The position numbers and the translations under genes are program-made. Below the pieces are notes generated by a model that saw only the letters and a list, made by a program, of their open reading frames with translations, was not told the DNA's origin and ran no database searches. A stretch of DNA of 64,000 nucleotides, from positions 7,318,501 to 7,382,500 of the forward strand of contig NC_088295.1 in the NCBI RefSeq assembly GCF_032854445.1. Reading direction: 5' to 3'. This DNA is from Liolophura sinensis (Eukaryota > Mollusca > Polyplacophora > Chitonida > Chitonidae). Shown piece by piece: positions 31,314 through 54,115 of the stretch. Numbering within the stretch: position 1 is the stretch's first letter; every line of letters starts with the position of its first letter.

Positions 31314-31640
31314 ATGTTTGCCCTACACAGCATGGCGTGGGGACGATCAGCTTTCCATTGCACACTGAAACCCACAATGTTCAGACTTTGTCCTAAGCAA
31401 CTGACAAAGTGCTGGAATAGGCAGTTACGGCAAAGATATCTGTGCTTCGTTTCTGCAAAGAGTTGTCTCCCTTCTTTCACCCATCCCTCTACTAACAGAC
31501 GGTGGTGTTCAACTCTCAGCATCTTTGGGCATGATCCATTTGATGATTATGAGAAGAGTCGGAAGCAGTTCAGCTTGACTGTTCCCGAATATTTTAACTT
31601 TGCCACAGACGTCATCGACCGCTGGGCTTGTATGGAAGAG
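31314..31640 (+). CDS. ACSM gene, first coding exon
   Basis: 109 codons. The N terminus is rich in Arg, Lys, Ser and Cys with almost no acidic residues over the first ~65 positions, typical of a mitochondrial presequence. It then enters family sequence at [15 protein letters not shown]. The donor is GTGCGA (weak), phase 0. Confidence 0.88.
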
Positions 31641-34600
31641 GTGCGAAACAGTGTTTGATCTTTAAGAAAAAAAACCCAAAAAGAACACAAATTGATTTCA
31701 TGGCTGCACTTCTGTATTTTCATGAGGTTCATTTTATTTAATATTTTTATCTTTAGTCTGAAAATGATACAGTGTGCTCACAAATATTTCAAATACGACA
31801 ACTGTTCTGGAGGTTATGGATGTAGGTAATATGCACTGGCTATCTTGGAGTACAAAAACTTTCAGTTATAATTAGACATGGAGCAACTTTTTGATGGCTG
31901 ATACAGCTGGCCCTGGAGAAAACAGCCAAGTGACCATACTTATAAACTGTTTTGGTCTGTTAATTCTAGGATGTGTTATTGGCAGTGGTGTGTTTAATGG
32001 TGATTTTAACTCCATGTAAGTTCATTATTTTGTAATTTTTACATCAGGAAGGAAAGAGATCTCGTAGTAACCCAGCATTATGGTGGATAGATGACAGGGG
32101 TCAGGAGGTAAAGTGGAGCTTCCAGCAACTCTCCCAGTACTCCAAAAAGTAAGTTACCTCAGCTCATTAGATTTGGTCAATTCTAGGTGTTTAGTTCATT
32201 CAGTGCATTTGTCTGAATGAAGGAAAATTTGCATAAACTTCTGCTTCATCACAGAATACATCAGAATATTATAAGTTCCTGTAAAATATTAATATGCCTG
32301 TGACTAAAATTATATTGATGGTTTAGTAAATATGTACCTCATAGTTCAAATAGTGTAAATTTACAGATGTCCATATTAAGCATTGCTTTGGTGTTAATGT
32401 GCTTTGTCTTTCTAGAGTTGCCAATATCCTGAGTATCGACTGTAGATTACAGCCAAAAGACAGGATGATTGTCATCCTTCCCCGTGTGTTACCTTGGTGG
32501 TTACTGAACCTGGCAGCAATAAGAGCAGGTAAACAGTAGATGATCCTCCCCCATGTGTTACCTGGCTGGTTTCTCAACCTGGCAGCAATAAGGACAGGTA
32601 AACAATAGATTGTTCTCCCCCATGTGTTACCTGGGTGGTTACTGACCCTGGCAGCAATAAGGACAGGTAAACATAGATGATTCTTCCCCTGTGTTACCTG
32701 GCTGGTTACTGACCCTGCCAGCTGGAAGAGCAGGTAAATAGATGATCCTTCCCCGCGTGTTACCTGGCTGGTTACTGACCCTAGCAGCAATAAGGACAGG
32801 TACATTGTAAACAATAAATGATTCTCCCCCATGTGTTACCTTGGTGGTTACTGTGAACCTGGCAGCAATGAGTGCAGGTGAACAATAGATGATCCTCAGC
32901 CATTTGTTACCTGGCTGGTTACTGAACCTGGCAGCAATGAGGACAGGTAAACAATAGATGATTCTCCCCCATGTGTTACCTGGCTGGTTAATGACCCTGC
33001 CACCTGGAAGAGCAGGTAAACAATAGATGATCCTTCCCCATGTGTTACCTGGGTGGTTACGGACCCTGGCAACAGTAAGAACAGGTAAAGAATAGATGGT
33101 CCTTCCCTGTGTGTTACCTGGGTGGTTACTGACCCTAGTAGCAATAAGGACAGGTAAGGTGTAAACAATAGATGATTCTCCCCCGTGTGTTACTTTGGTG
33201 ATTACCATGAACCTGGCAGCAATAAGAGCAGGTTAACAATAGAAACAATAGATGATCCTCCCCTCATGTGTCTCCTGGGTGGTTACAGAACTTGTGAGCA
33301 ATGAAAACAGCTGTTGATCCTTTGTCACAGTTTACCCAGGTGGCTTATACCAGACTTGGAAATAGTTTAGATACCTGTTTTGCAGTGCTGTTACATTGCA
33401 CATACACATACTAAGTGTAACAGTATGTTATACCAGGTACATGTGCATGCGACTGCTTCGTTAAACATTGTGTTATTATTTGACTCTAGCTTTACCTTCA
33501 GCATCATCCTAAAATACCTGTCTCATTTCTCTATGCAGGTGTGGTACTGAGCCCAGGAACAACTTTGTTGACCCCTAAGGACATCTCACACAGACTTCTG
33601 TCCTCTCAGGCCTGCTGTGTAGTGACTGATGTAAACTGTGCAGAGGCTGTGGATCAGGTAATGTGGAGATGTCTGATGACTTAATATGGTACTGGAAAAC
33701 AGTTTGGTTTGTTAAAATGCCCAGTCACTATGTAGTGGAATGTACAGTGACATGTAGAAAAAGCATCTAACAGATTTCATACCTTAACTGCCACTGATCA
33801 CTTTCCTGTATTGCAGCTTCAAACATTTTTGAAAATAATACAGCTCACTTTCAGCCTTAGCAAAACTTCTTCAAGAAATGGACATGCACTAGAATGAGAT
33901 GAGAATTTAAACAAGAGGTTCAGCCTGTGATGAGCACAACTGAGTGACTCTATAAAGAAGAGTGTAGGATGGCAAATGTGCCTCTCGAAATTAAATCGAG
34001 CATTATTCTACACAATGTTTTACATAAAATGACTTTATTAAATACAAGCCCTGCATGACTGGTTTTCGATCACCTAAAGTATAGTTAATATAATGGATAT
34101 GGTTGCATTTGTGTTGTGACGGAGTAAGCATCTGTTGGAATGGAACAGCATGCATGGAACACTATTATTAGTAAAGAAGGGGGACTGAAATTTTTCCGTT
34201 GGCAGGTGGCAGAGCAGAGTTCGTATCTGAAGACCAAACTTCTAATTGGGCCAGAGACCAGGTATGTGAACAATAGCTTCAACTACACTCTCCTGTCACC
34301 CCAACATGTACATGTCTGCCTTGTGGCTGTAACTTGCACCTTCATCCGCCTGTCACACGAACATGTACATGTCTGCCCTTTGACTGTAACTTGCACCTCC
34401 ATTCACCTGTCACACCACCATATACATGTCTGCTGTGTGACTGTAACTTGCACCTTCTTCTAATTGTCACACCAGCATGTAGATGTCTGCTCAGGGGCTG
34501 TAACTTGCACCTTCATCTACCTGTCACACCAGCATGTAGATGTCTGCTCAGGGGTTGTAACTTGCACTTTCATCTACCTGTCACACCAGCATGTACATGT

Positions 34601-37600
34601 CTGCTCTGTGGCTGTAACTTGCACCTTCATCTTACTGTCACACCAGGATGTACATGTCCGTTGTGTGACTGTAACTTGCACTTTCACCCACCTTTCACAC
34701 CAGGATGTACATGTCTGTTGTGTGACTGTAACTTGCACCTTCATCCACCTGCCACACCAGGATGTACATGTCTGTTGTGTGACTGTAACTTGCACTTTCA
34801 TCCACCTTTCACACCGGGATGTACATGTCTGTTGTGTGACTGTAACTTGCACCTTCATCCACCGGCCACACTAGCATGTACATGTCTGACTGTAACTTGT
34901 CCAAGTTTACTCTGTGGCTGTATGTGTACATATGTTTTAACAGTGAGTGTGGCTTACCACCACATCAGCATTATTTCAGCCCTTTCATGTTATTATTAAC
35001 AGTTACGACAATCTTTACATGTGCATTGTATGCTATAATGCAAACTATAGACCCTTGGTCTTGTCTCAAGTTGTGTCACAGTTACGTATGAGGTTGACGT
35101 AGGCTGACTGCCCTGTTGAATAGAGTTGACCCAACCCTTTGTCTTCCTCAGACCTGGCTGGATGAGCTTTAACCAACAGCTTGACAAGGCCAGCTCAGAT
35201 TTCCAGGTGAGTTTTAGAACTTTTCTCAGTTACATAAGAAAAATAAATTTTTGAAAATGAAATTTTTTCTTTTTCTTTGATCACATGCTTTCAAATTTCA
35301 AATTGACAGTCTACGTACATGTATATAGTCTTCCTGTGGAATTTGGTGATAGACCTACCATTAGTCAGCCCAGTGTCATGAGTACATGTACATGTGTACC
35401 GGTACAGGTATGATGAGGGCTGGTCAAGTGTCAAGAATGTAAATTCTCTGTTGTCAGTACATTGTGACCATGTGGGTCATCCTATCTGATGCCAGTGTAC
35501 TTTGACCAGATGGATCATCACACATTTTGTCAGGTGTGAGTACATTGTGACTGGGTAGGTCATCATATCTGTTTGTGCTTTGACCAGACTGATCATCACA
35601 GGTTTTGTCTGGTGTAAGTACATTGTGACTGGGTAGGTCATCATATCTGATGCCAGTGTACTTTGACCAGATGGATTATCACACATTTTGGCTGGTGTGA
35701 GTACATTGTGACTGGGTAGGTCATCATGTCTGATGCCAATGTACTTTGACCAGATGGATTATCACACATTTTGTCAGGTGTGAGTACATTGTGACTGGGT
35801 AGGTCATATCTGATGGTAGTGTACTTTGACCAGATGGATTATCACACATTTTGGCTGGTGTGAGTACATTGTGACTGGATAGGTCATCATGTCTGATGCC
35901 AGTGTACTTTGACCAGATGGATCATCACACTTTTTATCTGGTGTGAGTACATTGTGACTGGGTAGGTCATCATATCTGATGCCAGTGTACTTTGACCAGA
36001 TGGATTATCACACATTTTGTCATGTGTGAGTACATTGTGACTGGGTAGGTCATCATGTCTGATGCCAGTGTACTTTGACCAGACGGATCATCACACATTT
36101 TGTCATGTGTGAGTACATTGTGACTGGGTAGGCCATCCTGTCTGATGCCAGTGTACTTTGACCAGATGGATTATCACACATTTTGTCATGTGTGAGTACA
36201 TTGTGACTGGGTAGGTCATCATATCTGATGCCAGTGTACTTTGACCAGATGGATCATCACACATTTTGTCATGTGTGAGTACATTGTGACTGGGTAGGTC
36301 ATCATATCTGATGCCAGTGTACTTTGACCAGATGGATCATCACACATTTTGTCAGGTGTGAGTACATTGTGACTGGGTAGGCCATCATATCTGTTTGTGC
36401 TTTGACCAGACTGATCATCACAGGTTTTGTCAGGTGTGAGTACATTGTGACTGGGTAGGTCATCATATCTGATGCCAGTGTACTTTGACCATTTTGTCAG
36501 GTGTGAGTACATTGTGGCTGGGTAGGTCATCATGTCTGATGCCAGTGTACTTTGACCATTTTGTCTGGTGTGAGTACATTGTGACTGGGTAGGTCATCAT
36601 GTCTGATGCCAGTGTACTTTGACCAGATGGATCATCACACATTTTGTCTTGTGTGAGTACATTGTGACTGGGTAGGTCATCATATCTGTTTGTGCTCTGA
36701 CCAGACTGATCATCACAGGTTTTGTCTGGTGTGAGTACATTGTGACTGGGTAGGTCATCATGTCTGATGGCAGTGTACTTTGACCAGATGGATCATCACA
36801 AGTCTTGTCTGGTGTGAGTACATTGTGACTGGGTAGGTCATCATGTCTGATGGCAGTGTACTTTGACCAGATGGATTATCACACATTTTGGCTGGTGTGA
36901 GTACATTGTGACTGGGTAGGTCATCATGTCTGATGCCAGTGTACTTTGACCAGATGGATCATCACACATTTTGTCATGTGTGAGTACATTGTGACTGGGT
37001 AGGTCATCATATCTGATGCCAGTGTACTTTGACCAGATGGATTATCACACATTTTGTCATGTGTGAGTACATTGTGACTGGGTAGGTCATCATATCTGAT
37101 GGCAGCGTACTTTGACCAGATGGATCATCACAAGTCTTTTCTGGTGTGAGTACATTGTGGCTGGGTAGGTCATCATGTCTGATGCCAGTGTACTTTGACC
37201 AGATGGATTATCACACATTTTGGCTGGTGTGAGTACATTGTGACTGGGTAGGTCATCATGTCTGATGGCAGTGTACTTTGACCAGATGGATCATCACACT
37301 TTTTATCTGGTGTGAGTACATTGTGACTGGGTAGGTCATCATATCTGATGCCAGTGTACTTTGACCAGATGGATTATCACACATTTTGTCATGTGTGAGT
37401 ACATTGTGACTGGGTAGGTCATCATGTCTGATGCCAGTGTACTTTGACCAGATGGATCATCACACATTTTGTCAGGTGTGAGTACATTGTGACTGGGTAG
37501 GCCATCCTGTCTGATGCCAGTGTACTTTGACCAGATGGATTATCACACATTTTGTCAGGTGTGAGTACATTGTGACTGGGTAGGTCATCATGTCTGATGC

Positions 37601-40600
37601 CAGTGTACTTTGACCAGACGGATCATCACACATTTTGTCAGGTGTGAGTACATTGTGACTGGGTAGGTCATCATATCTGATGCCAGTGTACTTTGACCAG
37701 ATGGATTATCACACATTTTGTCATGTGTGAGTACATTGTGACTGGGTAGGTCATCATATCTGATGGCAGCGTACTTTGACCAGATGGATCATCACAAGTC
37801 TTTTCTGGTGTGAGTACATTGTGGCTGGGTAGGTCATCATGTCTGATGCCAGTGTACTTTGACCAGATGGATTATCACACATTTTGGCTGGTGTGAGTAC
37901 ATTGTGACTGGGTAGGTCATCATGTCTGATGGCAGTGTACTTTGACCAGATGGATCATCACACTTTTTATCTGGTGTGAGTACATTGTGACTGGGTAGGT
38001 CATCATATCTGATGCCAGTGTACTTTGACCAGATGGATTATCACACATTTTGTCATGTGTGAGTACATTGTGACTGGGTAGGTCATCATGTCTGATGCCA
38101 TTGTACTTTGACCAGATGGATCATCACACATTTTGTCAGGTGTGAGTACATTGTGACTGGGTAGGCCATCCTGTCTGATGCCAGTGTACTTTGACCAGAT
38201 GGATTATCACACATTTTGTCAGGTGTGAGTACATTGTGACTGGGTAGGTCATCATGTCTGATGCCAGTGTACTTTGACCAGACGGATCATCACACATTTT
38301 GTCAGGTGTGGGTACATTGTGACTGGGTAGGTCATCATATCTGATGCCAGTGTACTTTGACCAGATGGATTATCACACATTTTGTCATGTGTGAGTACAT
38401 TGTGACTGGGTAGGTCATCATATCTGATGCCAGTGTACTTTGACCATTTTGTCTGGTGTGAGTACATTGTGACTGGGTGGGTCATCATGTCTGATGGCAG
38501 CGTACTTTGACCAGATGGATCATCACAAGTCTTGTCTGGTGTGAGTACATTGTGACTGGGTAGGTCATCCTGTCTGATGCCAGTGTACTTTGACCAGATG
38601 GATTATCACACATTTTGTCAGGTGTGAGTACATTGTGACTGGGTAGGTCATCATATCTGATGCCAGTGTACTTTGACCAGATGGATTATCACACATTTTG
38701 TCATGTGTGAGTACATTGTGACTGGGTAGGTCATCATATCTGATGCCAGTGTACTTTGACCATTTTGTCTGGTGTGAGTACATTGTGACTGGGTGGGTCA
38801 TCATGTCTGATGGCAGCGTACTTTGACCAGATGGATCATCACAAGTCTTGTCTGGTGTGAGTACATTGTGACTGGGTAGGCCATCCTGTCTGATGCCAGT
38901 GTACTTTGACCAGATGGATTATCACACATTTTGTCAGGTGTGAGTACATTGTGACTGGGTAGGTCATCATATCTGATGCCAGTGTACTTTGACCAGATGG
39001 ATTATCACACATTTTGTCAGGTGTGAGTACATTGTGACTGGGTAGGTCATCATGTCTGATGCCAGTGTACTTTGACCAGACGGATCATCACACATTTTGT
39101 CATGTGTTTACTCTGTGGCTGTATGTGTACATATGTTTTAACAGTGAGTGTGGCTTACCACCACATCAGCATTATTTCAGCCCTTTCATGTTATTATTAA
39201 CAGTTACGACAATCTTTACATGTGCATTGTATGCTATAATGCAAACTATAGACCCTTGGTCTTGTCTCAAGTTGTGTCACAGTTACGTATGAGGTTGACG
39301 CATCACACAGTACATTGTGACTGGGTAGGTCATCATATCTGATGGCAGTGTACTTTGACCAGATGGATCATCACACATTTTGTCAGGTGTGAGTACATTG
39401 TGACTGGGTAGGCCATCATATCTGTTTGTGCTTTGACCAGACTGATCATCACAGGTTTTGTCAGGTGTGAGTACATTGTGACTGGGTAGGTCATCATATC
39501 TGATGCCAGTGTACTTTGACCATTTTGTCTGGTGTGAGTACATTGTGACTGGGTAGGTCATCATGTCTGATGGCAGTGTACTTTGACCAGATGGATCATC
39601 ACAAGTCTTGTCTGGTGTGAGTACATTGTGACTGGGTAGGTCATCATGTCTGATGGCAGTGTACTTTGACCAGATGCATTATCACACATTTTGGCTGGTG
39701 TGAGTACATTGTGACTGGGTAGGTCATCATGTCTGATGCCAGTGTACTTTGACCAGATGGATCATCACACTTTTTATCTGGTGTGAGTACATTGTGACTG
39801 GGTAGGTCATCATATCTGATGCCAGTGTACTTTGACCAGATGGATTATCACACATTTTGTCAGGTGTGAGTACATTGTGACTGGGTAGGTCATCATATCT
39901 GATGGCAGCGTACTTTGACCAGATGGATCATCACAAGTCTTTTCTGGTGTGAGTACATTGTGGCTGGGTAGGTCATCATGTCTGATGCCAGTGTACTTTG
40001 ACCAGATGGATTATCACACATTTTGTCTGGTGTGAGTACATTGTGACTGGGTAGGTCATCATGTCTGATGGCAGTGTACTTTGACCAGATGGATCATCAC
40101 ACTTTTTATCTGGTGTGAGTACATTGTGACTGGGTAGGTCATCATATCTGATGCCAGTGTACTTTGACCAGATGGATCATCACACATTTTGTCAGGTGTG
40201 AGTACATTGTGACTGGGTGGGTCATCATATCTGATGCCAGTGTACTTTGACCAGATGGATCATCACAAGTCTTGTCTGGTGTGAGTACATTGTGACTGGG
40301 TAGGTCATCATATCTGATGCCAGTGTACTTTGACCAGATGGATTATCACACATTTTGTCAGGTGTGAGTACATTGTGACTGGGTAGGTCATCATGTCTGA
40401 TGCCAGTGTACTTTGACCAGACGGATCATCACACATTTTGTCAGGTGTGGGTACATTGTGACTGGGTAGGTCATCATATCTGATGCCAGTGTACTTTGAC
40501 CAGATGGATTATCACACATTTTGTCATGTGTGAGTACATTGTGACTGGGTAGGTCATCATATCTGATGCCAGTGTACTTTGACCATTTTGTCTGGTGTGA

Positions 40601-43600
40601 GTACATTGTGACTGGGTAGGTCATCATGTCTGATGGCAGCGTACTTTGACCAGATGGATCATCACAAGTCTTGTCTGGTGTGAGTACATTGTGACATATC
40701 TGATGCCAGTGTACTTTGACCAGATGGATTATCACACATTTTGTCAGGTGTGAGTACATTGTGACTGGGTAGGTCATCATATCTGATGCTAGTGTACTTT
40801 GACCAGATGGATCATCACAAGTCTTGTCTGGTGTGAGTACATTGTGACATATCTGATGCCAGTGTACTTTGACCAGATGGATTATCACACATTTTGTTAG
40901 GTGTGAGTACATTGTGACTGGGTAGGTCATCATATCTGATGCCAGTGTGCTTTGACCAGATGGATCATCACAGGTTTTGTCTGGTGTGAGTACATTGTGA
41001 CTGGGTGGGTCATCATAGTTTGTACATGTGCATGTAGTCTAGGCAATCAGTCTGCAAAGCAATTGTTTGTACATTTCAGTCTCCCCCTACCAAGAGCTCT
41101 GATCCAATGATGTTGTTCTTCACCAGTGGCACTACGGGGGATCCAAAGATGGCTGAGCACAGCCATGCCAGCTATGGCCTGGGCCACATGGTCACAGCAG
41201 TGTAAGTCCATCACTGTCAGGCACCTCTAATACATATAATTGTTATCACACGGCCCTGACTTTGTCACAAAACTGCCCTGTGTAATAGGATAATAAGTAA
41301 TAAGATTTCTCTGGAATGAATGTATGAGTAAATGCTTAGGGTTTAATATGTCTTTTTGTGGCAGGACGGGTCTATGGTGCTAAAGGGCTGCCACCACATT
41401 TGGACTCCCTCTGTATGTCCTGTCACTTTCCCTCCCCATCTCAATGCATCCTGTCACTTTCCTCCCCTTCTCTGTACGTCCTGTCACTTTCTCTCCCAAT
41501 CTCTGTACGTCCTGTCACTTTCGGTCCTCATCTACACATTTGGGCTGACTCTGCACGTCCTGTCACTTTCCCTCCGGTCACTTTCCCTCCTCAGCTACAT
41601 GTTTGGACTGACTCCCGCTGGATATAATGTCACTTTCCGTCCTCAGCTATACATGCATGTATGAGTTTGGACTGACTCCCACTACATGTTTTTGCCATGT
41701 CACTTTCCCTCTCAGTTACACAGTTGGGCTGACTCCCTGTGTATGTAATGTCACTTTCTGTCCTCAGCTACGCATTTTGGCCGACTCTCTCTGTATATAA
41801 TGTCACTTTCACTCCTCAGCTATGTGTGTGGACTGACTCTCTCCTCAGGTATATGTATGTGTTTGGACTGACTCCCTATATATGTCACGTCACTTTCCCT
41901 CCTCAGGTACAGTTTTGTGCCGACTCTCTGTGTATATAATGTCACTTTCCCTCCTCAGCTACACGTTTGGGCTGACTCCCTCCTCAGGTATATTTGTGTG
42001 TTTGGACTGACTCCCAATACATGTCATGTCACTTTCCCTCCACAGCTACACTTTTGTGCTGTATGTAATGTCACTTTCCGTTCTCAGCTGTGTGTGTGGA
42101 CTGACTCCTCTATGTAATGTCACTTTCCTTCCTCAGCTACACTTTTGTGCTGACTCCCTCCATATGTAATGTCACTTACATTCCTCAGCTGTGTGTGTGG
42201 ACTGACTCCTCTATGTAATGTCACTTTCCTTCCTCAGCTACACTTTTGTGCTGACTCCTTCCATATGTAATGTCACTTACATTCCTCAGCTGTGTGTGTG
42301 GACTGACTCTATGTAATGTCACTTTCCCGCCTCAACTACACATTTGTGCTGACTCCTTCCATATGTAATGTCACTTACATTCCTCAGTTGTGTGTGGGGA
42401 CTGACTTCTCTATGTAATGTCACTTTCGCTCCTCAGCTACGCGTTTGGGCTGACTGCCTCCTCAGGTATATGTATGTGTCCTCAATGTAATGTCACTTTC
42501 CCTCCATATGGAGGGTGTGTGTGGACTGACTTCCTCTGTATGTATTGTCACTTTCCCTCCTCAGCTCTGTGTGGGGACTGACTTCTCTATGTAATGTCAC
42601 TTTCGCTCCTCAGCTACGCGTTTGGGCTGACTCCCACTGATGTGATGTGGAATCTTTCCGATACTGGCTGGGCCAAAGCTGCATGGTCAAGTTTTTTTGC
42701 GCCTTGGATTAATGGAGCGTGTGTTTTCCAACAAAACACAGCCAGATTTGACCCTCATGCAACTCTGGAGGTATATGTAATGGTTGCCATTGTGAATTTA
42801 TCTGAGGGTAATTACTTATTGCCTGCATTTCTGTGAAATTTGGTAAGGTCTGAAAGGTTGAATTTACCTGAACTACATGTGATGGTGGCAAGGTGAAATG
42901 TGTGATAAAGTAATTAAAGTAATGGGTGAAGGTGAAATTTGTGAGGAAGTAATGACTGAAATGTTTAATATAGCTGAACTACATGTACTTGTAATGGTTA
43001 AAAGGTGAAATTTGTGAGGAAGTAATGACTGAAATGTTTAATATAGCTGAACTACATGTACTGGTAATGGTTAAAAGGTGAAATTTGTGAGGAAGGAATG
43101 ATTGAAAGATTAAATTTACCTAAACTTTTTAAGGATGGCCCCATAGGGACACAATAATTGTGAGAAAACACTCAGGTGCATACATGTATATTATGTCAAG
43201 AAAACATTCTGTAACACACAGGGTACATCACTGTTCTGTGGTTCACAGAGATTCACACACAGGGCTCATCACTCTGTTCTGTGCTCCACACAGATTCGCA
43301 CACAGGGTTCATCACTCTGTTCTGTGCTCCACACAGATTCGCACACAGGGTACATCACTCTGTTCTGTGCTCCACACAGATTCACACAACAGGTACAACA
43401 CTCTGTTCTGTGCTCCACACAGGTTCACACACAGGGTACATCACTGTTCTGTCTTTCTCTGCAGGTGCTGTCCAGGTTTCCCATCACTCTGTTCTGTGCT
43501 CCACACAGGTTCACACACAGGGTACATCACTCTGATCTGTCTTTCTCTGCAGGTGCTGTCCAGGTTTCCCATCACTCTGTTCTGTGCTCCACACAGGTTC

Positions 43601-46600
43601 ACACGCAGGGTACATCACTCTATTCTATGCTCCACACAGATTCGCACACAGGGTTCATCACTCTGTTCTGTGCTCCACACAGATTTGCACACAGGGTACA
43701 TCACTCTGTTCTGTGCTCCACACAGATTCACACACAGGATTGATCACTCTTTTCTTCCTTTCTCTGCAGGTGCTGTCCAGGTTTCCCATCACTATTTTCT
43801 GTGCTCCACACAGATTTACACACAGGATTCATCACTCTGTTCTGTGCTCCACACAGATTCACACACAGGATTGATCACTCTGTTCTGTCTTTCTCTGCAG
43901 GTGCTGTCCAGGTTTCCCATCACTATTTTCTGTGCTCCACACAGATTCACACACAGGATTCATCACTCTGACCTGTGCTCCACACAGATTCACACACAGG
44001 GTACATTATTCTGTTCTGTGCTCCACACAGATTCACACACAGGATTGATCGCTCTGTTCTGTCTTTCTCTGCAGTGCTGTCCAGGTTTCCCATCATTATT
44101 TTCTGTGCTCCACACAGATTCACACAAAGGGTACATCACTCTGTTCTGTGCTCCACACAGATTCACACACAGGATTGATCACTCTGTTCTGTCTTTCTCT
44201 GCAGGCGCTGTCCAGGTTTCCCATCACTATTTTCTGTGCTCCACACAGATTCACACACAGGGTTCATCACTCTGTTCTGTGCTCCTCACAGATTCACACA
44301 CAGGATACATCACTCTGTTGTGTCTTCCTCTGCAGGTGCCCATTACTGTTCTGTGCTCCACACAGATTCACACACAGGGTACATCACTCGGCTCTGTCTT
44401 TCTCTGCAGGTGCTGTCCAGGTATCCCATCACTCTGTTCTGCGCTCCACCTACTGCCCTAAGGATGATGATTACCCAGGATTTGAAGAAGATGAAGCCGA
44501 AAGCATTGCGCAAATGTGTGAGCGGAGGAGAACCAGTGGTGAGCTGTATACTGTATTGGAATTGTTCAGGTAGCATTACACCCACATGCTTCACTACTGA
44601 TGATTACTGTGACTTACACTGTATATGTAGCAAGAGAAATATAGATGTGCTTCTGACTATGAATGTCACAACATTGTAAAAGTGTGTGACTTCAGAAATA
44701 AACTTCATGTGTTTTATGAGTAACATAACTTCCCCTTTTCCCCCTGAATTGTTTCATAGTATGGAGTAACATATAGCACATAACATTGACTTCAGCAGTG
44801 CACATTATGAGGCTGGCTTGATCAACAGTAACACACTAGGATAGGGGAGCTTTGTACTCAATCCAGTATTATATCTAACACTGTACTGCCTAACTAATTA
44901 GAACAGTTACATGTGCATGTAGTACAGTACAGGTCTGTTTGGATAATAGCTCTCTGTTGGCAGCATAGTGCTTTGTGGAATTACAGTGGACAAAACAGCT
45001 GTTACTTCCAGGTAGACCACCGACTGCTCTGGCAGACTGTGGACCCCAAACAGTCTCCATCTGCAGCTGAATACCTGGTGAAGCTGTCATCCTAATAGAC
45101 AGAAAACATCTGTTTGGACTGACTGCTCCCCATACATTCCCAATCAGTGTCCAAAGCTTAAGCTCTGGCCGAGGGATCAGGAAGCGATCTTAGGCTATGT
45201 CAAAATTTCAGATCACTTTAAAATTGTTATTTCTTACGTAACAAGCCAAAATATTGCTTGATAATGTAAATTTTTGGTAAGTTATTGTGAAACAAATTTC
45301 ATCTAACAGAAAGGAACATACAAAGGGTAATGATTCTAAGATTGCTTTGTGATCCTGTAGCCTTGTCCCCGGCTTTAGCTTAAGGCTAAACATCTAAACT
45401 TTTTGTTTTTTGAAAGTGTTAGATGTTATGTGCACTATATGTCTGAAGACGGCTTTCCCCCCACATCTATAACCTTTTCCTCTGTTGGCTTACATGCACT
45501 TTCTGTGTTGATAGGTAAATGAGTGTGGATATATGCCCGAAGTTAAGAGGCTGCTATGAAGACTGAATGTGATGGCCAGGTGAAGGATTAGAGAGATTTT
45601 TCACTGAAGCCTGACACAAAAATGTGTTTTATCACATAGCCTCAAATGCAAGACTGTGGAAACAGATACAGTTGTATATTCAAAGTTTGTACTGCCGTCA
45701 TGTCAAAAGTGACCTATCAGTCAAGGCTTGTCAAGCCATCTCTGCCGAGAATTGTGTAATAAATATTCCAAACTTTACAGATAATTGTGATTGTAGGACA
45801 TTTGATGTGAATGTGGATTCCAGTGCATACATTCATCAGTTATCGCCTCTAGGAAATGAGGTTCAGTCTTGGGGATATCTAAATCTCATCAAATAGGAGA
45901 GTCAAGAGTAGTAGAGTCTGTACCAGAATATGCTTGTTAAAATTCTGTCTCATCAAATAGGAGAGTCAGAGTAGTAGAGTCTGTACCAGAATATACTTGT
46001 TAAAATTCTGTCTCATCAAATAGGAGAGTCAGAGTAGTAGAGTCTGTACCAGAATATACTTGTTAAAATTCTGTCTCATCAAATAGGAGAGTCAGAGTAG
46101 TAGAGTCTGTACCAGAATATACTTGTTAAAATTCTGTCTCATCAAATAGGAGAGTCAGAGTAGTAGAGTCTGTACCAGAATGTACTTGTTAAAATTCTGT
46201 CTCATCAAATAGGAGAGTCAGAGTAGTAGAGTCTGTACCAGAATATACTTGTTAAAATTCTGTCTCATCAAATAGGAGAGTCAGAGTAGTAGAGTCTGTA
46301 CCAGAATATACTTGTTAAAATTCTGTCTCATCAAATAGGAGAGTCAGAGTAGTAGAGTCTGTACCAGAATATACTTGTTAAAATTCTGTCTCATCAAATA
46401 GGAGAGTCAGAGTAGTAGAGTCTGTACCAGTATGTACTTGTTAAAATTCTGTCTCATCAAATAGGAGAGTCAGAGTAGTAGAGTCTGTACCAGAATGTAC
46501 TTGTTAAAATTCTGCATCTATGTGGTATACAGAACAGTGGTAGAGAAAACATCCCATTTGAGATAAGGTGCTACAGTGTATATGCCTTCTGCTTTATGGC

Positions 46601-49600
46601 TCTTGTTATATGTTGTGGTGTACATCTTATAATAACAACAGTATTTATTCTAACTTTATAGAGGACGCTGTGTCACATACCACCTGGCATGAAGTATGTG
46701 TAGGCTTGTATATGGTAACATGTAACTAACCTTTATGTGGAATTACAATTGAAGGACAGTATTGATACTAGTATTAAGTGAGTGCGCTCTGTACCTGTAC
46801 ATGAAGTACATGATGTAGGCCTGTATATGTCAACATGTAACCGCATGTAACCCTGTTACATGTGCGTCCAACCCACAGGATGTATACTAACTGAGAGGAC
46901 ACTGTATCTCCATGGTATGAAGTAATTCTGTACCCTGTAGACCTGTAAAATACTGTGAATATAGGCAGCCAGTAGAGACATCTTTCTGGTGAAAGTTTAC
47001 TATTTTTTTCCAAAAACTACCATGAGATAAATTTTTTGTCCATCAGATGAAAGTTGCTCTTATTCCCCTGAGTATCTCATTGCAGAACCCTGAAATCATT
47101 GAGGAGTGGAGAAAAGGCATGGGTACAGACATCTATGAGGCATATGGACAGACAGAAACAGTAAGTGCTGGCTGAAATCTACATGTAGGCCCTATGTATA
47201 GTATTTAACAGCATATTTGCAGGTATATGTGCTTAATATGTATTGATATATGTGTAAAAGTAACTATAAAGCAAGTTAAAGTATACAGTGTGTATACAGA
47301 GTAGGTTATTTATAGTCAAGCATGTGCATACTGTACAGATGTATATCATTAGTATATGATCTGTAAGGCCTTGGTGATCAACAAGAAACTGTTGTCAGTG
47401 TCTGTGGATCTGTTGACAAGAAACTGTTGTCAGTGTCTGTGGGTCTGTTGACAAGAAACTGTTGTCAGTGTCTGTGGGTGACGACAGTGTCTGTGGATCT
47501 GTTGACAAGAAACTGCGGTCAGTGTCTGTGGATCTGGTGACAGGAAACTGTGGTCAGTGTCTGTGGGTCTTGACAAGAAACTGTGGTCAGTGTCTGTGGG
47601 TCTGTTGACAAGAAACTGTTGTCAGTGTCTGTTGAGAAGAAACTGTCGTCAGTGTCTGCGGGTTTGTTGACAAGAAACTGTCGTCAGTGTCTATGGGTCT
47701 GTTGACAAGACACTGTCATCAGTGTGTGTGGGTCTGTTGACAAGACACTGTCATCAGTGTGTGCGGGTCTGTTGACAAACTGTCGTCAGTGTCTGTGGGT
47801 GACGACAGTGTCTGTAGGTCTGTTGACAAGAAGCTGTCATCAGTGTCTGTGGGACATGACAATGTGTGTGTTCACGACAGTGTTGTGGGTCTGTTGACAG
47901 TCTTGTATTCTTTGAAGACCACTTGTCTTCCACCAAAATGGCATGCATATCACACATGGGAAAGTATGCAAGTATGTGTAACTTACCCCTGGACAGTCAT
48001 TTACTAAGGATTGTTTCCACCTGCAAAACTCATCACCACTGTATTACCAAAATTGAATATGGCATAATGCCACAGTCAGATACATAAGTAAATTCTTAGT
48101 GTTGCAGTGATCCCCCTCATTAGCTCTGAGTGGCAGAAGGTACAGTATATAACTGCAGCTTAAATTATGTCAAGGTGTCTGACACCAGTACACCTTGTAC
48201 AGCTACAATTAAATGTAAAAGAATTCTCCCATCTTTTGTATAAAGTACTCATTTTCTACTTACAGACGTGTCTTATTGCCACCTTCCCGTGCATAGAGCA
48301 AAAACCAGGCTCAATGGGGAGAGTGTGTCCAGGGGTGGATATAGAGGTAAGTACTATCCCATGGCTGGTATGCACCAAAGGTGTTCACACCTTGGACTGA
48401 ATTGGGTTTAGGGTATTTTCATATCATGCATGTAGGGTAATGTCAGTCAGTCCATCATTCCATCTTTCTATCCGTCTGTCCAGTTCCTTGGAAACACAAT
48501 ATGTCATGCATGTAGGGTAGTGTCAGTCGGTCCATCATTCCATCCATCCATCCATCCGTCTGTCCAGTTCCTTGGAAACACAATACATGTATGTCATGCA
48601 TGTAGGGTAGTGTCAGTCAGTCCATCATTCCATCCATCCATCCGTCTGTCCAGTTCCTTGGAAACACAATATGTCATGCATGTAGGGTAGTGTCAGTCGG
48701 TCCATCATTCCATCCATCCATCCATCCGTCTATCCAGTTCCTTGGAAACACAATATGTCATGCATGTAGGGTAGTGTCAGTCAGTCCATCATTCCATCCA
48801 TCCATCAGTGTGTCCAGTTCCTTGGAAACACAATATGTGTTTTTTACACATCAACTGTGTATTGTAAAGATGTGTATTGTAAAATTGTGCATTGTATATA
48901 TATTTATTTATTTATTTAATTGGTGTTTTACGCCATTTTACAGACGAATATTTCACGTATACAACAGCAGCCAGCATTATGGTGGGTGGAAATCCACGAC
49001 CATCCGCAGGTTGCTGACAGACCTCCCCACATATGGCTGGAGAGGAAGTCAGCATGAGCTGGACCTGAACTCACAGCGACGGCATTGGTGAGAGACTGAG
49101 TACACTGTGCTAGCGCACTAACCGAGTGAGCCACAAAGGCCCCATTGTATATATAGCTGTGTATTGAAAAAGTGTGCATTGTATATATAGCTCCATGTAT
49201 GTTGTAAAGTACTTTACCTTGTATTTTGATGGGTTTAGTGATGAGAACCAGAGTCAGATTCTACATGTGTTCAAAAATGGGTTGAAATTGAAGGAATTAA
49301 TTTCGTCAAAGCAGGCAGTTAAGATGTGTATAATGAAAGAGAGTTTGTGTTGATTGTAACCATTACATGTACATGTAAGTTTGCACATTTCATGATATGC
49401 ATGGAATGCATCTAAGGTACTTTAAGGATTGCTAAGAGAATTGTTGAAATGAAAATTCCATTAACACTCCTGAACGCATATAAAGCTGATGTGGTGACAG
49501 AAATAAGCCTCTGAGGTCCTGTCACGGGATTTCAAATAAGGTGTAGGCGAAAGGCTTTGACTCCAGTAAACACGAGAATGAATACCTGGCTGCTTATTCT

Positions 49601-52600
49601 AATCATACTCAAGTGTTATGTTACTAGAAGGGTAAAAACATAGTTTAGGAGTTTGATAACTTGGTTGTTGGTGTTTTTAAAGAATGTTTTATTTTGGTAA
49701 GTTACATGTACATGGGTAGAGAAAACTGGAGTTTCAGTATTTAACTACCAACCTTCGACAAATAATTGACACACCTACTTACATGTGATACACAGATTTC
49801 CTCGTCCACAACAAGCTCATATACATGCTGTTCATTGGTTGAAGACATGAGCTTTAATTCCTATAAACCTCATGTAGGTGGACCCAGATGTTGACCACTT
49901 ATTGCCACATAAAGAAAAATGGAGGGAAGGGAATCCAAGGCTGGAATTGAACCAACACCTCCAGGCGTTCATAAAAGTCGTCTGGAGCCAGTATTTGGTC
50001 TGTTAATGGAATAAAACACTCAATAACTGGTTATATTTATTTAATTTGAGGCTCTTTTGCAAAAAAATATTCAACATTTTACATAACCTCATAACCTTTT
50101 GACATAAGCCTAGCGCGAGTGTCTGACAGTGAGCACACCCGGTCTGACTGATTTCCTTCCCCTGGCGTCAAGTGGCACTAATGTCTTCAGCTCCTTTCAA
50201 GGCAAGCACGTTAGCATCCAGGTTTCTGTTTTTGGGAGTCTGAAGTTTGATAAATGGCTTGATACAGCACCGAAATTACAGTAGCAGTGTAGTTTTCCGC
50301 GCTAAATATATCCTTATTTAAAAATCATTATAGTCAGTGCTCCATGGGGTAATTCACTATTTGTGGGTCTCTTGATGTTTTCATTACGGGTGGTTGATTT
50401 TTGTAGTAAATTTCATGTGATTAGTACCCTGTTAATAAGTCAAATCAGACTTCGTTGTGAATGACTTTTGTTGATTGAAATCTTAGTTTATTTTGACAGG
50501 TCAGGGTAGTATTTCAAGAGAATTTAGATAATGCACAGAACATTCATCTGGGTGTAGCATTCAAAATAGTTTCTAATATATATGTAAGGTGTTGCATAAA
50601 TTTTAATTTTCAGAAATGTTTTTTTTGTTCTTTAGATCATTTTTGACATTTCCTTTTACAGAGACAGAGTGACAACACATATTCAATGAGCCATTAATGC
50701 ATAACCAATCTGTCTTGATTCATGACTATTGAATATTTCTTAAAAGTGATGTCCAGACCAATTGTTCATGTTGGGAGTTTTAGTTAATTTAGAGTAATGC
50801 TCTAGGTTGTAAGCTATCTGTGCAGGTCTTCCTTCACACTTCAATGGACTGGTATCCTGAAATACAATAACTGCTATGTGTGTTGATCAGTTTGCAGTAT
50901 CAACTAGGAGGCCAGCGTGAGTTCATATATAGGCAGAAATAATTACTTTAATCAATGAAGGATAGTAAAGTACAAAAATATTCAATTTTAGTATCTCAAA
51001 CGGTTTGTCAAAAAAAAAAAGAAATCAATTTCATCCAGAAAGTGGTGGTCAGTCATGGAAAACTGATGTCTATGAACCCTTGCACCTCCTGTGCTGTCAA
51101 TTCTGACATAAAAGTCTTAACCATGCGACCAGAATCGGTTTTGCAATCAGTGCCAGTAAATCCGTATTTTAGACATCAAATACGGTTTGCTTCCAAATGA
51201 ATAGGAAATGACAACATTTGCTCAAGCCACGAAACTGAACATTTCATTTTGGTAATAGCTTCTGTAATTGTGTTCCTGATGTGCACAACAACAAAAAAGT
51301 GTTTAGAATTAGGATAGTGACAGGTGTAATATATACGTTTTTGGTATGATGTTTTTCTTAAACATTTTTTATATCTATGTTTTAGAAAATGTGCCCACTT
51401 GTGGATTTCAGTGTTGGCACATTTGGTGAGGGGCTGTGTATTAAACTACACTGAAACAGTGGGATACATTTACGTACTTGGTACTGTATGTTTGCTTTGT
51501 TTGGTTTACTCTTGTGTTGGTGTGTACCGTACATGTACATGTAACTCTAATACGTGGGCTCGGTTTAAACCATACCAAAACTTTATTCACGGGTTGTGCG
51601 TTGCTGTGCAATGTTAATCTGCTCTGTAAAGACAAGAATAAACATTGGCCTGAGAGAAACATGTACATGTAGCCACTGCCTCTCAGATATTGAATTTAGG
51701 ACAGTTGGCAATGACTTTGAAGCAGGTACTGTCTCTCAGGTATTGACATTTAGGAGGGTTGACAATGACTTTGAGACAGGTACATTTAGAGGGTTGGCAA
51801 TGAATTTGAGTCAAGTACTGTCTCTCAAGAATTGACATTTTAGGAGGTTGACAATGACTGTGAGACAGGTACTGTCTCTCTGGTACTGAAATATAAGGGG
51901 TTATCATTGGCTTTGAGACAGGTATTGTCTTTCAGGTATTGACATTTAGAGGGTTGACAATGACTTTGAAGCAGATACTGTCTCTCAAGTATTGACATTT
52001 AGAGGGTTGACAATGACTTTGAAGCAGATACTGTCTCTCAAGTATTGACATTTAGAGGGTTGACAATGGACTTTGAAGCAGATACTGTCTCTCAAGTATT
52101 GATATTTAGAGGGTTGGCAGTGAATTTGAAGCAGATACTGTCTCTCAAGTATTGATATTTAGAGGGTTGGCAGTGAATTTGAAGCAGATACTGTCTCTCA
52201 AGTATTGACATTTAGGGGGTTGACAATGACTGAAGCAGATACTGTCTCTCAAGTATTGACATTAGAGGGTTGACAATGACTTTGAAGCAGATACTGTCTC
52301 TCAAAGTATTGACATTTAGAGGGTTGACAATGACCTTTGAAGCAGATACTGTCTCTCAAGTATTGACATTTAGAGGGTTGACCATGACTTTGAAGCAGAT
52401 ACTGTCTCTCAAGTATTGATATTTAGAGGGGTTGACAATGACTTTGAAGCAGATACTGTCTCTCAAGTATTGACATTTAGAGGGTTGGCAGTGAATTTGA
52501 AGCAGATACTGTCTCTCAAGTATTTGACATTTAGGAGGGTTGGCAGTGAATTTGAAGCAGATACTGTCCTCTCAATTTAGGGGGTTGACAATGACTTTGA

Positions 52601-54115
52601 AGCAGATACTGTCTCTCAAGTAGTTGATATTTAGAGGGTTGACAATGACTTTGAAGCAGATACTGTCTCTCAAGTATTGATATTTAGAGGGTTGACCATG
52701 ACTTTGAAGCAGATACTGTCTCTCAGTTATTGACTTTGAAGTTAAGTGATTCCAGGATGTTTACACGGAACATCATGTACATGTGCTGTAGTTACACCTG
52801 CTTGTGGAGGTGTTGACAGAGAAGGTGGGTACAATTTCAAAGTTGACAAAAAAATGCAGAATTTGTCAACCTAGTTTAAGGAAGGCATGTCACTCACCTG
52901 GCACTACTACCAAGTTTTCTGACAATTAACCACCATTTCACTTACATGTACAGCTTTTATTTGCTAAGGGTGTACGTACAGCTGGTGTTACTTTAAAGTT
53001 GAAACAATTATTCCACCCCAATCCGCTGGCTATCTGTTGTTCCTACATACAGACAGCTCTTCTTTAGAGAGCAGGGCTACCGTTAGGGGGTTAGTGCAAA
53101 TATGTCATGTGTTACATAGAGAGGCAGGGCTACGTTTAGGGTTAGTGCAATATGTCATGTGTTACATAGAGAGCATGGGCTACCGTTAGGGTTTAGTGCA
53201 ATATGTCATGTGTTACATAGAGAGCAGGGCTACCGTTAGGGTTAGTGCAATATGTCATGTGTTACATAGAGAGCAGGGCTACCGTTAGGGGTTAGTGCAA
53301 TATGTCATGTGTTACATAGAGAGCAGGGCTACCGGTTTAGGGTTAGTGCAATATGTCATGTGTTACATAGAGAGCAGGGCTACCGTTAGGGTTAGTGCAA
53401 TATGTCATGTGTTACATAGAGAGCAGNNNNNNNNNNNNNNNNNNNNNNNNNNNNNNNNNNNNNNNNNNNNNNNNNNNNNNNNNNNNNNNNNNNNNNNNNN
53501 NNNNNNNNNNNNNNNNNNNNNNNNNNNNNNNNNNNNNNNNNNNNNNNNNNNNNNNNNNNNNNNNNNNNNNNNNNNNNNNNNNNNNNNNNNNNNNNNNNNN
53601 NNNNNNNNNNNNNNNNNNNNNNNNNNACTTGACAAGAAGTGAGCGTGCACAAACCAGATGGATATATGAAATAAGTTTAAGTCTCAAACAGCACAACACA
53701 CTGTGAGAGCCCTGGATTAACAATGGAACAATGGAGTTGTCTTAATTGTTCATTTGTTTCATGATAATTAACTTCACTGTAAAGAATATGTCAAATTGCA
53801 CGATATCAGCATTATTTATTTATTGATTTGATTGGTGTTTTATGCTGTACTCAAAAATATTTCACTAAACAATGGCAGCCAGCATTATGGTGGGAGGAAA
53901 CGGGGCGCAGCCTGAGGGAAACCCATGACGATCTGCAAGTTGCTGTAATACCTTTCCATGTACGGCCTGAGAGGAAGCTATCTCCAAAGTGTATGTTGCT
54001 GTATTTTCTTGTCTTGTAGATCGAGTTTGTGGACCAGCTGCCAAAAACGGTGAGCGGGAAAATCAGACGAGTGGAGTTGAGGAACAGGGAATGGAGCCAA
54101 AGTGGCCAGCTATAG
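31314..54115 (+). CDS. ACSM-type medium-chain acyl-CoA synthetase, mitochondrial (gap inside)
   Basis: Twelve visible exons: 31314-31640, 32048-32148, 32416-32528, 33539-33657, 34206-34261, 35152-35206, 41080-41201, 42614-42770, 44410-44538, 47086-47160, 48266-48346, 54020-54115 (476 codons plus stop, in frame). The family activates fatty acids to acyl-CoA through an acyl-AMP intermediate in the mitochondrial matrix. Visible motifs: basic N-terminal presequence, [11 protein letters not shown] (ATP P-loop), [26 protein letters not shown] and C-terminal [10 protein letters not shown] with the catalytic Lys. Family members run to about 570-590 aa. The missing ~110-130 residues, including the TGD and GRxDD hinge motifs, fall between exons 11 and 12, where the assembly has a 200-N gap. 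An in-frame TGA at 31302 fixes the start. Which ACSM paralogue it is cannot be told. Confidence 0.92.
32048..32148 (+). CDS. ACSM gene, exon 2
   Basis: Encodes [18 protein letters not shown] and QQLSQYSK, a strongly conserved N-terminal ACSM block. Acceptor CATCAG, donor GTAAGT, phase 2. Confidence 0.9.
32416..32528 (+). CDS. ACSM gene, exon 3
   Basis: Encodes [17 protein letters not shown] then [18 protein letters not shown]. Acceptor TTTCTAG, donor GTAAAC, phase 1. Its last ~60 bp plus the donor are the source of the minisatellite that fills the next intron. Confidence 0.9.
32529..33300 (+). repeat. splice-donor minisatellite in ACSM intron 3
   Basis: About 11 tandem units of 65-75 bp, each a diverged copy of the last ~60 bp of exon 3 plus ~10 bp of intron. 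Each keeps a form of GTGTTACCTGG, TGGTTACTGA, CCTGGCAGCAATAAGG and ACAG. Ten of them retain GT at the donor position (mostly GTAAAC). The true donor at 32529 is the first of the row. Readthrough past the true donor meets TAG after three codons. Minus-strand open frames across 32323-33208 are repeat translations. Confidence 0.9.
33539..33657 (+). CDS. ACSM gene, exon 4
   Basis: Encodes [20 protein letters not shown] then [10 protein letters not shown], the conserved segment around PGT and KDI. Acceptor ATGCAG, donor GTAATG, phase 0. Confidence 0.9.
34206..34261 (+). CDS. ACSM gene, exon 5
   Basis: A short 56-bp exon encoding [18 protein letters not shown]. Acceptor TTGGCAG, donor GTATGT, phase 2. 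The placement rests on phase and the family's LKTKLLI-like block. Confidence 0.82.
34285..34900. repeat. 57-bp minisatellite in ACSM intron 5
   Basis: About ten units of 57 bp containing CACACCAGCATGTACATGTC and GACTGTAACTTGCACCTTCA. The period is a multiple of three, giving long open frames on both strands with 19-residue repeats; none shows coding character. Confidence 0.9.
34905..35099. repeat. 195-bp duplicated segment, copy 1
   Basis: Unique intron 5 sequence, from GTTTACTCTGTGGCTG to CGTATGAGGTTGACG, that ends 52 bp before exon 6. It is repeated base for base at 39106-39300 inside the intron 6 satellite. Confidence 0.95.
35152..35206 (+). CDS. ACSM gene, exon 6
   Basis: A 55-bp exon encoding [18 protein letters not shown]. 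Acceptor CCTCAG, consensus donor GTGAGT, phase 0. It corresponds to the variable linker before the P-loop exon of the family. Confidence 0.8.
35440..41020. repeat. 5.6-kb array of 83-bp units in ACSM intron 6
   Basis: Roughly 65 units with an 83-bp period: TGTGAGTACATTGTGACTGG, GTAGGTCATCATATCTGATG, CCAGTGTACTTTGACCAGAT and GGATTATCACACATTTTGTC. Variant units recur in blocks. For example, the GGCAGCGTAC variant at 37101 and 37765 is 664 bp apart (eight units), so there is a higher-order organisation. Every unit holds a GTGAGT, identical to a strong splice donor. A foreign 195-bp block interrupts it at 39106-39300. Confidence 0.95.
39106..39300. repeat. 195-bp duplicated segment, copy 2
   Basis: Exact copy of 34905-35099, embedded in the 83-bp array. 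The join on the left falls in CATGT/GTTTACTC and on the right in GTTGACG/CATCACACAG. All 195 positions agree by eye. Confidence 0.95.
41080..41201 (+). CDS. ACSM gene, exon 7 (ATP P-loop)
   Basis: Encodes [20 protein letters not shown] then [13 protein letters not shown]. The TSGTTGDPK motif is the signature AMP-binding loop of the ANL superfamily. Acceptor TTTCAG, donor GTAAGT, phase 2. Confidence 0.95.
41405..42613 (+). repeat. splice-acceptor minisatellite in ACSM intron 7
   Basis: About 20 irregular units of 45-90 bp, each with TGTCACTTTCCCTCCTCAG followed by a diverged copy of the first ~20 bp of exon 8 (CTACGCGTTTGGGCTGACTC). The last unit is the real acceptor and exon 8. Most units keep the pyrimidine tract and the CAG, so they are potential decoy acceptors. 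Confidence 0.88.
42614..42770 (+). CDS. ACSM gene, exon 8
   Basis: Encodes [20 protein letters not shown] then [18 protein letters not shown] and ending HATLE. It is a hallmark ACSM block with the conserved SDTGW. Donor GTATAT, phase 0. Confidence 0.95.
42880..43110. repeat. ~75-bp tandem repeat in ACSM intron 8
   Basis: Three units with GGTGAAATTTGTGAGGAAGT, AATGACTGAAATGTTTAATA and AGCTGAACTACATGTACTGG. Not recognised as a mobile element. Confidence 0.75.
43190..44409 (+). repeat. splice-acceptor minisatellite in ACSM intron 8
   Basis: Units of 43-46 bp (CTCTGTTCTGTGCTCCACAC, AGATTCACACACAGG) alternate with longer units containing TCTTTCTCTGCAGGTGCTGT and CCAGGTTTCCCATCACT. The latter are copies of the exon 9 acceptor plus its first codons. 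Decoy AGs fall at 43463, 43551, 43768, 43899, 44073, 44203 and 44334, before the real one at 44408. The 433-residue open frame at 43160-44461 is a translation of this array. Confidence 0.92.
44410..44538 (+). CDS. ACSM gene, exon 9
   Basis: Encodes [20 protein letters not shown], then [13 protein letters not shown] and SGGEPV. YPIT, PPT and GGEP are family-typical. Acceptor CTCTGCAG, donor GTGAGC, phase 0. Confidence 0.95.
45890..46515. repeat. 63-bp minisatellite in ACSM intron 9
   Basis: Ten units of 63 bp: CATCAAATAGGAGAGTCAGA, GTAGTAGAGTCTGTACCAGA and ATATACTTGTTAAAATTCTG. Units are almost identical (1-2 differences each), so this is a recent expansion. Confidence 0.93.
47086..47160 (+). 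CDS. ACSM gene, exon 10 (A5 motif)
   Basis: Encodes [20 protein letters not shown] then GQTET. The YGQTE motif binds the adenine/acyl moiety in ANL enzymes. Acceptor TTGCAG, donor GTAAGT, phase 0. Confidence 0.95.
47370..47900. repeat. 35-bp minisatellite in ACSM intron 10
   Basis: About 14 units with GTTGACAAGAAACTGTTGTC and AGTGTCTGTGGGTCT, of uneven length (25-45 bp) through small deletions. Confidence 0.88.
48266..48346 (+). CDS. ACSM gene, exon 11
   Basis: Encodes [20 protein letters not shown] then CPGVDIE. The KPGSMG motif matches the family. Acceptor TTACAG, donor GTAAGT, phase 0. It is the last exon recognisable before the assembly gap. Confidence 0.93.
48425..48840. repeat. ~80-bp minisatellite with CCAT microsatellite
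   Basis: Five units containing GTCATGCATGTAGGGTAGTG, GTCCATCATTCCATCCATCC and CAGTTCCTTGGAAACACAAT. Unit length varies (76-90 bp) with the number of CCAT steps. Confidence 0.88.
48903..49143 (-). mobile_element. SINE family B with 12-bp TSD
   Basis: Minus copy in ACSM intron 11: (TTTA)n tail, GGTGTTTTACGCCATTTTAC, CCAGCATTATGGTGGGTGG, ending GAGCCACAAAGGCCCC. The direct repeat ATTGTATATATA lies at 48891-48902 and 49144-49155. Confidence 0.9.
49156..51684. other. ACSM intron 11, unique part
   Basis: AT-rich unique sequence scanned for the missing ACSM exons (TGD, GYFWF, GRADD, SSGYRIGP-like translations). None was found, so they are more likely in the N gap. The open frames at 50955-51200 and 51399-51617 have no family resemblance. 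Confidence 0.55.
51685..52740. repeat. 53-bp minisatellite in ACSM intron 11
   Basis: About 20 units: TATTGACATTTAGAGGGTTG, ACAATGACTTTGAAGCAGAT and ACTGTCTCTCAAG. Many units differ only by single-base insertions in homopolymers (GGGG, TTTG, AAAG), a pattern that can reflect consensus errors. Confidence 0.92.
52741..53059. other. ACSM intron 11, unique DNA between arrays
   Basis: Non-repetitive AT-rich sequence. No ACSM exon is visible. Confidence 0.5.
53060..53426. repeat. 49-bp minisatellite truncated by the gap
   Basis: Units of GTTACATAGAGAGCAGGGCT, ACCGTTAGGGTTAGTGCAAT and ATGTCATGT. Seven to eight units are present and the array runs straight into the N block, so its true length is unknown. 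One-base indels again concentrate in homopolymers. Confidence 0.92.
53427..53626. other. assembly gap, 200 Ns
   Basis: Exactly 200 Ns, a conventional placeholder size, so the real distance is unknown. The gap opens inside the 49-bp minisatellite. ACSM exons 11 and 12 flank it and the intervening coding exons are absent from the visible sequence. Confidence 0.99.
53813..53990 (-). mobile_element. truncated SINE family B
   Basis: The 3' part only: TTATTTATTGATTTGATTGG, ACTCAAAAATATTTCACTAA, CCAGCATTATGGTGGGAGGA, ending near CGGCCTGAGAGGAAGC. The tRNA head is missing. It lies just upstream of the acceptor of the last ACSM exon. Confidence 0.82.
54020..54115 (+). CDS. ACSM gene, last coding exon (A10 motif)
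   Basis: Encodes [20 protein letters not shown], then [11 protein letters not shown] and TAG. The PKTxxGKIxR motif carries the catalytic lysine of acyl-AMP formation. Acceptor CTTGTAG. A candidate AATAAA is at 55259-55264, over 1 kb downstream. Confidence 0.95.

Follow-up and report, generated by a model that had tools for sequence, protein, structure and literature searches.

Minisatellites known as mirages, whose tandem units run across an exon-intron boundary, have been described in amphioxus at either end of the intron, with the AG/GT letters kept in many of the copies and with splicing reported as undisturbed, according to the parts of the report available to us (PMC3087553). Cases in Adh, TnC and globin genes are mentioned in the available part of a second paper (PMC3902484), and the amphioxus mirages comprise those of Adh3, the globins BflGb6 and BflGb9, troponin C and PGBD5. 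Tandem duplication has also been invoked for the birth of introns, in a model where, in the portion of the source consulted, one exonic AGGT segment is duplicated and its copies supply the two ends of the intron (PMC3443670). In this regard, we have analysed a stretch of 64,000 nucleotides from the chiton Liolophura sinensis (assembly GCF_032854445.1, contig NC_088295.1, positions 7,318,501 to 7,382,500; the species name was changed to L. sinensis by a correction, PMC12441733), hereafter the window, which contains a gene for an ACSM-like acyl-CoA synthetase with three introns largely made of tandem copies of their own splice junctions. We consider it probable that these arrays are mirage-type minisatellites, grown from junction-spanning tandem duplications in introns that already existed. 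All the evidence is the DNA of one assembly, which was searched over 609,464,459 bases in 632 contigs.

The 11 placed exons of the gene join to an open frame of 445 amino acids, with GT and AG at all intron borders, and the product resembles human ACSM2A (PDB 2wd9, E 2.5e-91) and matches the Pfam AMP-binding profile (3.2e-60). Exon edges of up to 60 bp were locally aligned to their own intron for the 20 edges of introns 1-10, with 200 shuffles of each edge as the null. Three of the 20 rose above their shuffle maximum, the donor side of intron 3 and the acceptor sides of introns 7 and 8, which are the one donor and two acceptors where a first-pass annotation of this DNA had placed junction-derived repeats. 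Intron 3 holds 11 copies of the 3' edge of exon 3 (best score 82, shuffle maximum 25), intron 8 holds 18 full or partial copies of the 5' edge of exon 9 (70 and 25), and intron 7, with the exon letters alone, holds 7 copies of the 5' edge of exon 8 (39 and 32). The other 17 edges of introns 1-10 stayed under their own shuffle maximum, which agrees with the earlier view that the arrays in introns 5, 6, 9 and 10 do not obviously derive from exons; the donor edges of introns 4 and 5, with a score of 20 each, lie slightly over the 95th percentile (19).

When the whole junction unit was aligned instead (in intron 7, 52 bp comprising a pyrimidine tract, CAG and the start of exon 8), 11, 15 and 7 copies were counted in introns 3, 7 and 8, and the splice dinucleotide was intact in 10 of 10, 13 of 15 and 6 of 7 of the copies that cover it. 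The arrays take up 782 of 1010 bp (77%), 1205 of 1412 bp (85%) and 1196 of 1639 bp (73%) of these introns, which bears out the suggestion that they were lengthened by junction copies; without the arrays they would measure 228, 207 and 443 bp, lengths comparable to those of introns 1, 2 and 4 of the same gene (407, 267 and 548 bp). The copied exon edges correspond to residues that align with human ACSM2A, so that the exon is the likely source of the copies. Moreover, most intronic copies agree on a base other than that of the exon in 6 of 70, 6 of 67 and 6 of 59 columns, a pattern to be expected from an array that evolves beside an exon held in place by selection, and the mean identity from copy to copy is 82-94%. 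Reading through from exon 3, a stop is met 8 bp into intron 3.

The recurrence of this pattern was studied in 219 exon matches from profile searches with the myosin head (83) and kinesin (136) families, each taken with 600 bp on either side, giving 139 loci (numbered with L), 253,696 bases and 58 gene clusters. The AMP-binding family itself (18 matches) had been dropped for this purpose in favour of myosin and kinesin, many of its matches being long single frames. The DNA of each exon was aligned to the flanks of that exon after masking of exons, the controls being flanks of the other family (2190 comparisons) and reversed exons (219). A score of at least 50 was reached with the own flanks by 13 of the 219 exons and by none of either control, and a score of at least 35 by 15 exons, one of the 2190 mismatched comparisons and no reversed exon. 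A search of the assembly for intronic repeats matching exon edges had been proposed in the first-pass annotation, and in this form, run on 219 exons, it gives a result far above the control null.

Nine of the 13 exons scoring at least 50 carry junction repeats. The other four were set aside, two at L007 as whole-exon duplicates of one myosin gene, one at L066 where the profile overran into an intronic array, and L132, in our reading the distal end of the L131 array (the 357 bases between both loci are absent from the data). The remaining junction arrays were picked up by Tandem Repeats Finder (TRF) where a splice site had been called, or through lower alignment scores, followed by inspection, which took in matches flagged by either method. 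TRF classification covered 145 of the 219 donors and 177 of the 219 acceptors, uncalled junctions being assessed by the alignment test alone. Weaker copies at L124, L037, L026 and L110 (scores 30-37) look intronic or interior and were not counted. After inspection the count of junction-spanning repeats stood at 18, of which 13 affect a donor and 5 an acceptor. They are spread over 17 of the 58 clusters, and the process that had been suspected to recur from a single gene does so. The exonic part of the unit goes from 6 to 113 bp across arrays, so there is no fixed break point. L030 and L106 hold only about two copies, and TRF counts 19.0 at L024 for a 32-bp unit holding a complete acceptor; the array of L123 begins 59 bp past the donor, yet the junction is part of its unit. 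Of the 139 loci, 65 contain arrays by TRF, 93 arrays in all with 29,016 of the 253,696 bases, which indicates introns rich in minisatellites in general. A replicate with 19 exons of ABC transporters gave scores of at least 35 in 2 of 19 exons and in 0 of 190 controls, and one junction repeat against 1.6 expected at the rate of 18 in 219. This case (L150) is a duplication of two units across a donor, with one extra copy and AG/GTAA in both; the array of L152, which is intronic and starts about 12 bp after the donor, was not counted.

Two of the sampled loci deserve a separate description. L007 holds three tandem versions of one myosin exon about 500-600 bp apart (positions 601-705, 1094-1189 and 1697-1792 of the locus), the middle one about 80% identical to either other, and they look like mutually exclusive alternative exons. 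At L131-L132 (contig C11, 27412983-27415430), a copy of a kinesin exon edge lies some 1.6 kb downstream from the true exon and was listed as a profile match of its own; such arrays may mislead gene prediction.

Altogether, we would picture the origin of these arrays as follows. A local tandem duplication, presumably by slippage, end-joining or unequal exchange, would happen to span the exon-intron junction of an existing intron. In the RNA, splicing would keep to the outermost copy, which adjoins the complete exon, and the added units would thus fall inside the intron and be tolerated. The array could then expand and diverge like any minisatellite while selection keeps the exon copy still, and the intron would lengthen and gain a ladder of intact surplus splice sites. 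In the 21 arrays taken together (18 sampled and 3 in the window; 14 donor and 7 acceptor), 183 of 201 copies retain the decoy dinucleotide, so the decoys are not visibly purged.

Whether junctions are special targets for such duplications was addressed in the myosin and kinesin sample by binning the exon-facing array ends by distance, with the expectation taken from the intronic stretch of 0-480 bp. At acceptors, 5 array ends fall in the last 60 exonic bp against 5.54 expected from 42 intronic ends (P 0.65), a chance density for which no targeting is needed. At donors the same 60 exonic bp contain 9, where 17 intronic ends would predict 2.16 (P 0.0015), with 3 further ends 60-120 bp inside the exon; both kinds of edge pooled give 14 of 73 (P 0.037). 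For the ACSM-like gene, we estimate about 2.3 junction arrays by chance, with 3 seen, assuming 7 array-bearing introns, an ancestral length of about 300 bp and units of 60 bp. In this line, donor junctions of this lineage could be genuine hot spots of minisatellite birth, where transcription might favour breaks or slippage at the junction, for instance, and the ladders of intact donor sites could be partly selected because their U1 binding aids the transcription or splicing of long introns; we regard this as unlikely, though if it were true, intron length would grow by a junction-targeted process. As a separate observation, the density of array ends within introns near acceptors (42 in 80,525 bp) is about double that near donors (17 in 65,726 bp).

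A role of the ladders in regulating their intron, by binding U1 or U2AF or by serving as recursive or dual-specific sites, would be in agreement with the donor-edge excess and with the donor decoys themselves, whose GT is intact in 108 of 114 copies and more conserved than random column pairs of the same arrays (0.969 vs 0.894, P 0.034). Moreover, arrays of dual-specific AGGT sites are known in human UBC, as the available part of the source tells (PMC10809524). Such a role is improbable all the same, since at acceptors the AG columns were not more conserved than random pairs (0.925 vs 0.896, P 0.36) and both tests combined give P 0.063. In 10 of the 14 donor arrays there is also an in-frame stop within one unit length of the junction, so that splicing at a decoy donor would in most cases yield a truncated protein. 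In 5 of the 7 acceptor arrays an upstream stop lies in the frame of the following exon, a frame that comes into use only when the length added is divisible by three.

The first-pass annotation had gone further and read the arrays as possible intermediates of intron birth, in which tandem duplication of an exonic AGGT segment made the intron itself. AG/GT is indeed found at the junctions of introns 3 and 8 and at 11 of the 14 array donors, the dinucleotides are kept in most copies, and the duplication model is well supported elsewhere, to judge from the accessible part of its source (PMC3443670). The boundary letters proposed thus hold for introns 3 and 8 and fail at intron 7, which has AG/CT, and the proportion at array donors does not differ significantly from that at the remaining called donors (81 of 128, P 0.38), nor does the one at array acceptors (3 of 7, against 37 of 177 others, P 0.18). 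Moreover, the repeat units include intron sequence, and in introns 3, 7 and 8 the edge alignment found no copy of the opposite exon edge, only one edge being copied. Ungapped comparison of the intron start with the start of the next exon gives 5, 6 and 9 matches in 24 bases for these three introns, and that of the intron end with the end of the previous exon 9, 2 and 10; the highest value among the ten introns, 12 of 24, belongs to intron 5. This two-ended signature was examined in the ACSM-like gene. Growth of existing introns therefore fits these observations better than AGGT-driven birth, which we hold to be very improbable here and which is not supported in the form first proposed, though it might apply to introns of the sampled genes. 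Intron positions in myosin and kinesin paralogues were set aside as evidence on this point, because GT and AG within codons and old intron turnover make sharing ambiguous. For the ACSM-like gene the protein search listed no close paralogue for intron comparison, its matches being nine within the gene itself and two distant ones (E 1.5e-4 and 8.1e-4).

A reverse order, with the array present in the intron before the exon edge was extended into one of its units, would account for exon and array being contiguous and having a common unit. It is extremely unlikely given that the copied ACSM edges align with residues of human ACSM2A and that most of the sampled edges are within or next to a myosin or kinesin profile match, coding sequence far older than the arrays likely are. 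Chance resemblance or an assembly artefact, to which the low margin of intron 7 by exon letters alone (39 vs 32) might lend itself, is practically negligible with controls of 0 of 2190 and 0 of 219 at scores of at least 50, and the divergence among the copies of the window gene argues against artificial duplication.

Three points weigh against growth by chance duplication across the junctions of existing introns. The donor-edge excess goes beyond random seeding, with a P of 0.037 when both kinds of edge are pooled; it is unexplained and was noticed post hoc. That the introns are older than the arrays would follow, as far as the sequence can tell, from the missing two-ended signature in introns 3, 7 and 8. 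Finally, the ABC transporter replicate is small, with a single case of two units, too small to say more.

Table 1. Positions of the ACSM-like gene, its junction arrays and the exons they adjoin in the window, and loci with junction arrays in the myosin and kinesin sample.
Feature	Position or loci	Strand	Basis
ACSM-like acyl-CoA synthetase gene, exons 1-11 (exons past 11 unplaced)	31314..48346	+	Frame, borders, homology
Exon 3; first unit of the intron 3 array formed by its last 55 bp	32416..32528	+	Gene model, edge alignment
Intron 3 donor-edge array; ~69-bp units (~55 bp of exon edge and 14 bp of intron start)	32529..33310	+	
Intron 7 acceptor-edge array; ~52-bp units and longer periods	41409..42613	+	Unit copies, TRF
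Exon 8; first ~35 bp within the intron 7 array unit	42614..42770	+	Gene model, edge alignment
Composite acceptor-edge array of intron 8; subunits of ~43 bp plus 7 fuller copies of the junction	43214..44409	+	TRF
Exon 9; first ~41 bp within the intron 8 array unit	44410..44538	+	Gene model, edge alignment
Donor-edge arrays in the sample	L002, L007, L030, L039, L079, L094, L101, L106, L118, L123, L131, L135, L136		
Acceptor-edge arrays in the sample	L015, L017, L024, L087, L103		

Other parts of the gene and of the window (Table 1) offered further observations. The array of intron 6 (35452-41016) accounts for about 5.6 kb of this 5.9-kb intron and has units of about 83 bp with higher-order periods of 249 and 316 bp; other contigs contain weaker relatives of its unit, about 68-86% identical along parts of the query. 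Within it, at 39106-39300, lies a piece of 195 bp identical in all 195 positions to the 3' part of intron 5 (34905-35099), which is probably a recent copy carried about 4.2 kb downstream into the minisatellite. For exon 12, no AMP-binding_C profile match was found in the gene and no candidate among the frames after exon 11, frames inside 51675-52740 being left out and a run of N occupying 53427-53626 of the window. Two frames with tyrosinase domains were also detected, at 11180-13048 on the plus strand and at 17762-19447 on the minus strand, the 3' end of the second being overlapped by a few bases by an array at 17276-17780.

The mirages that we found in print had been described in lancelets, one gene at a time. 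If in a mollusc they occur in about one in 12 of the myosin and kinesin exons sampled, they would be a common route of intron lengthening there, and the chiton genome would then offer many natural cases in which the spliceosome picks one of up to about 20 similar sites. Splice-site choice, the tolerance of decoys and intron growth would become testable through related chitons and their RNA. Among the titles and abstract openings listed from the open-access literature no junction-spanning array was reported in molluscs, which does not establish priority, and an intronic minisatellite of abalone is not described as exon-derived in the part of its report that was available (PMC6905558).

Compared with the systems described so far, the chiton arrays resemble Rogers-model intron gain in that a tandem duplication takes in splice-site letters, but there an exonic AGGT segment creates the intron, whereas here the junction is copied and the intron lengthens. 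The dual-specific arrays of human UBC and VCX3A are likewise tandem repeats carrying AG/GT, but introns 3, 7 and 8 of the ACSM-like gene have only one intron end in the array. The likeness to amphioxus mirages is closer. A junction-spanning unit occurs at three junctions of the ACSM-like gene, at 18 in the sample of 219 exons and in 1 of the 19 ABC transporter exons, both boundary types are affected (14 donor and 7 acceptor arrays), AG/GT is kept in 183 of 201 copies, and the unit sizes overlap, with 27-135 bp here and 10-160 bp given for Adh3 and globins in the available parts of the amphioxus reports. They differ in that the host is a mollusc and not a cephalochordate, that many genes were sampled, and that the chiton arrays are known from genomic DNA alone. 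Judged by their sequence, the chiton arrays thus share the anatomy of the known amphioxus mirages, with their recurrence over many sampled genes, in a mollusc.

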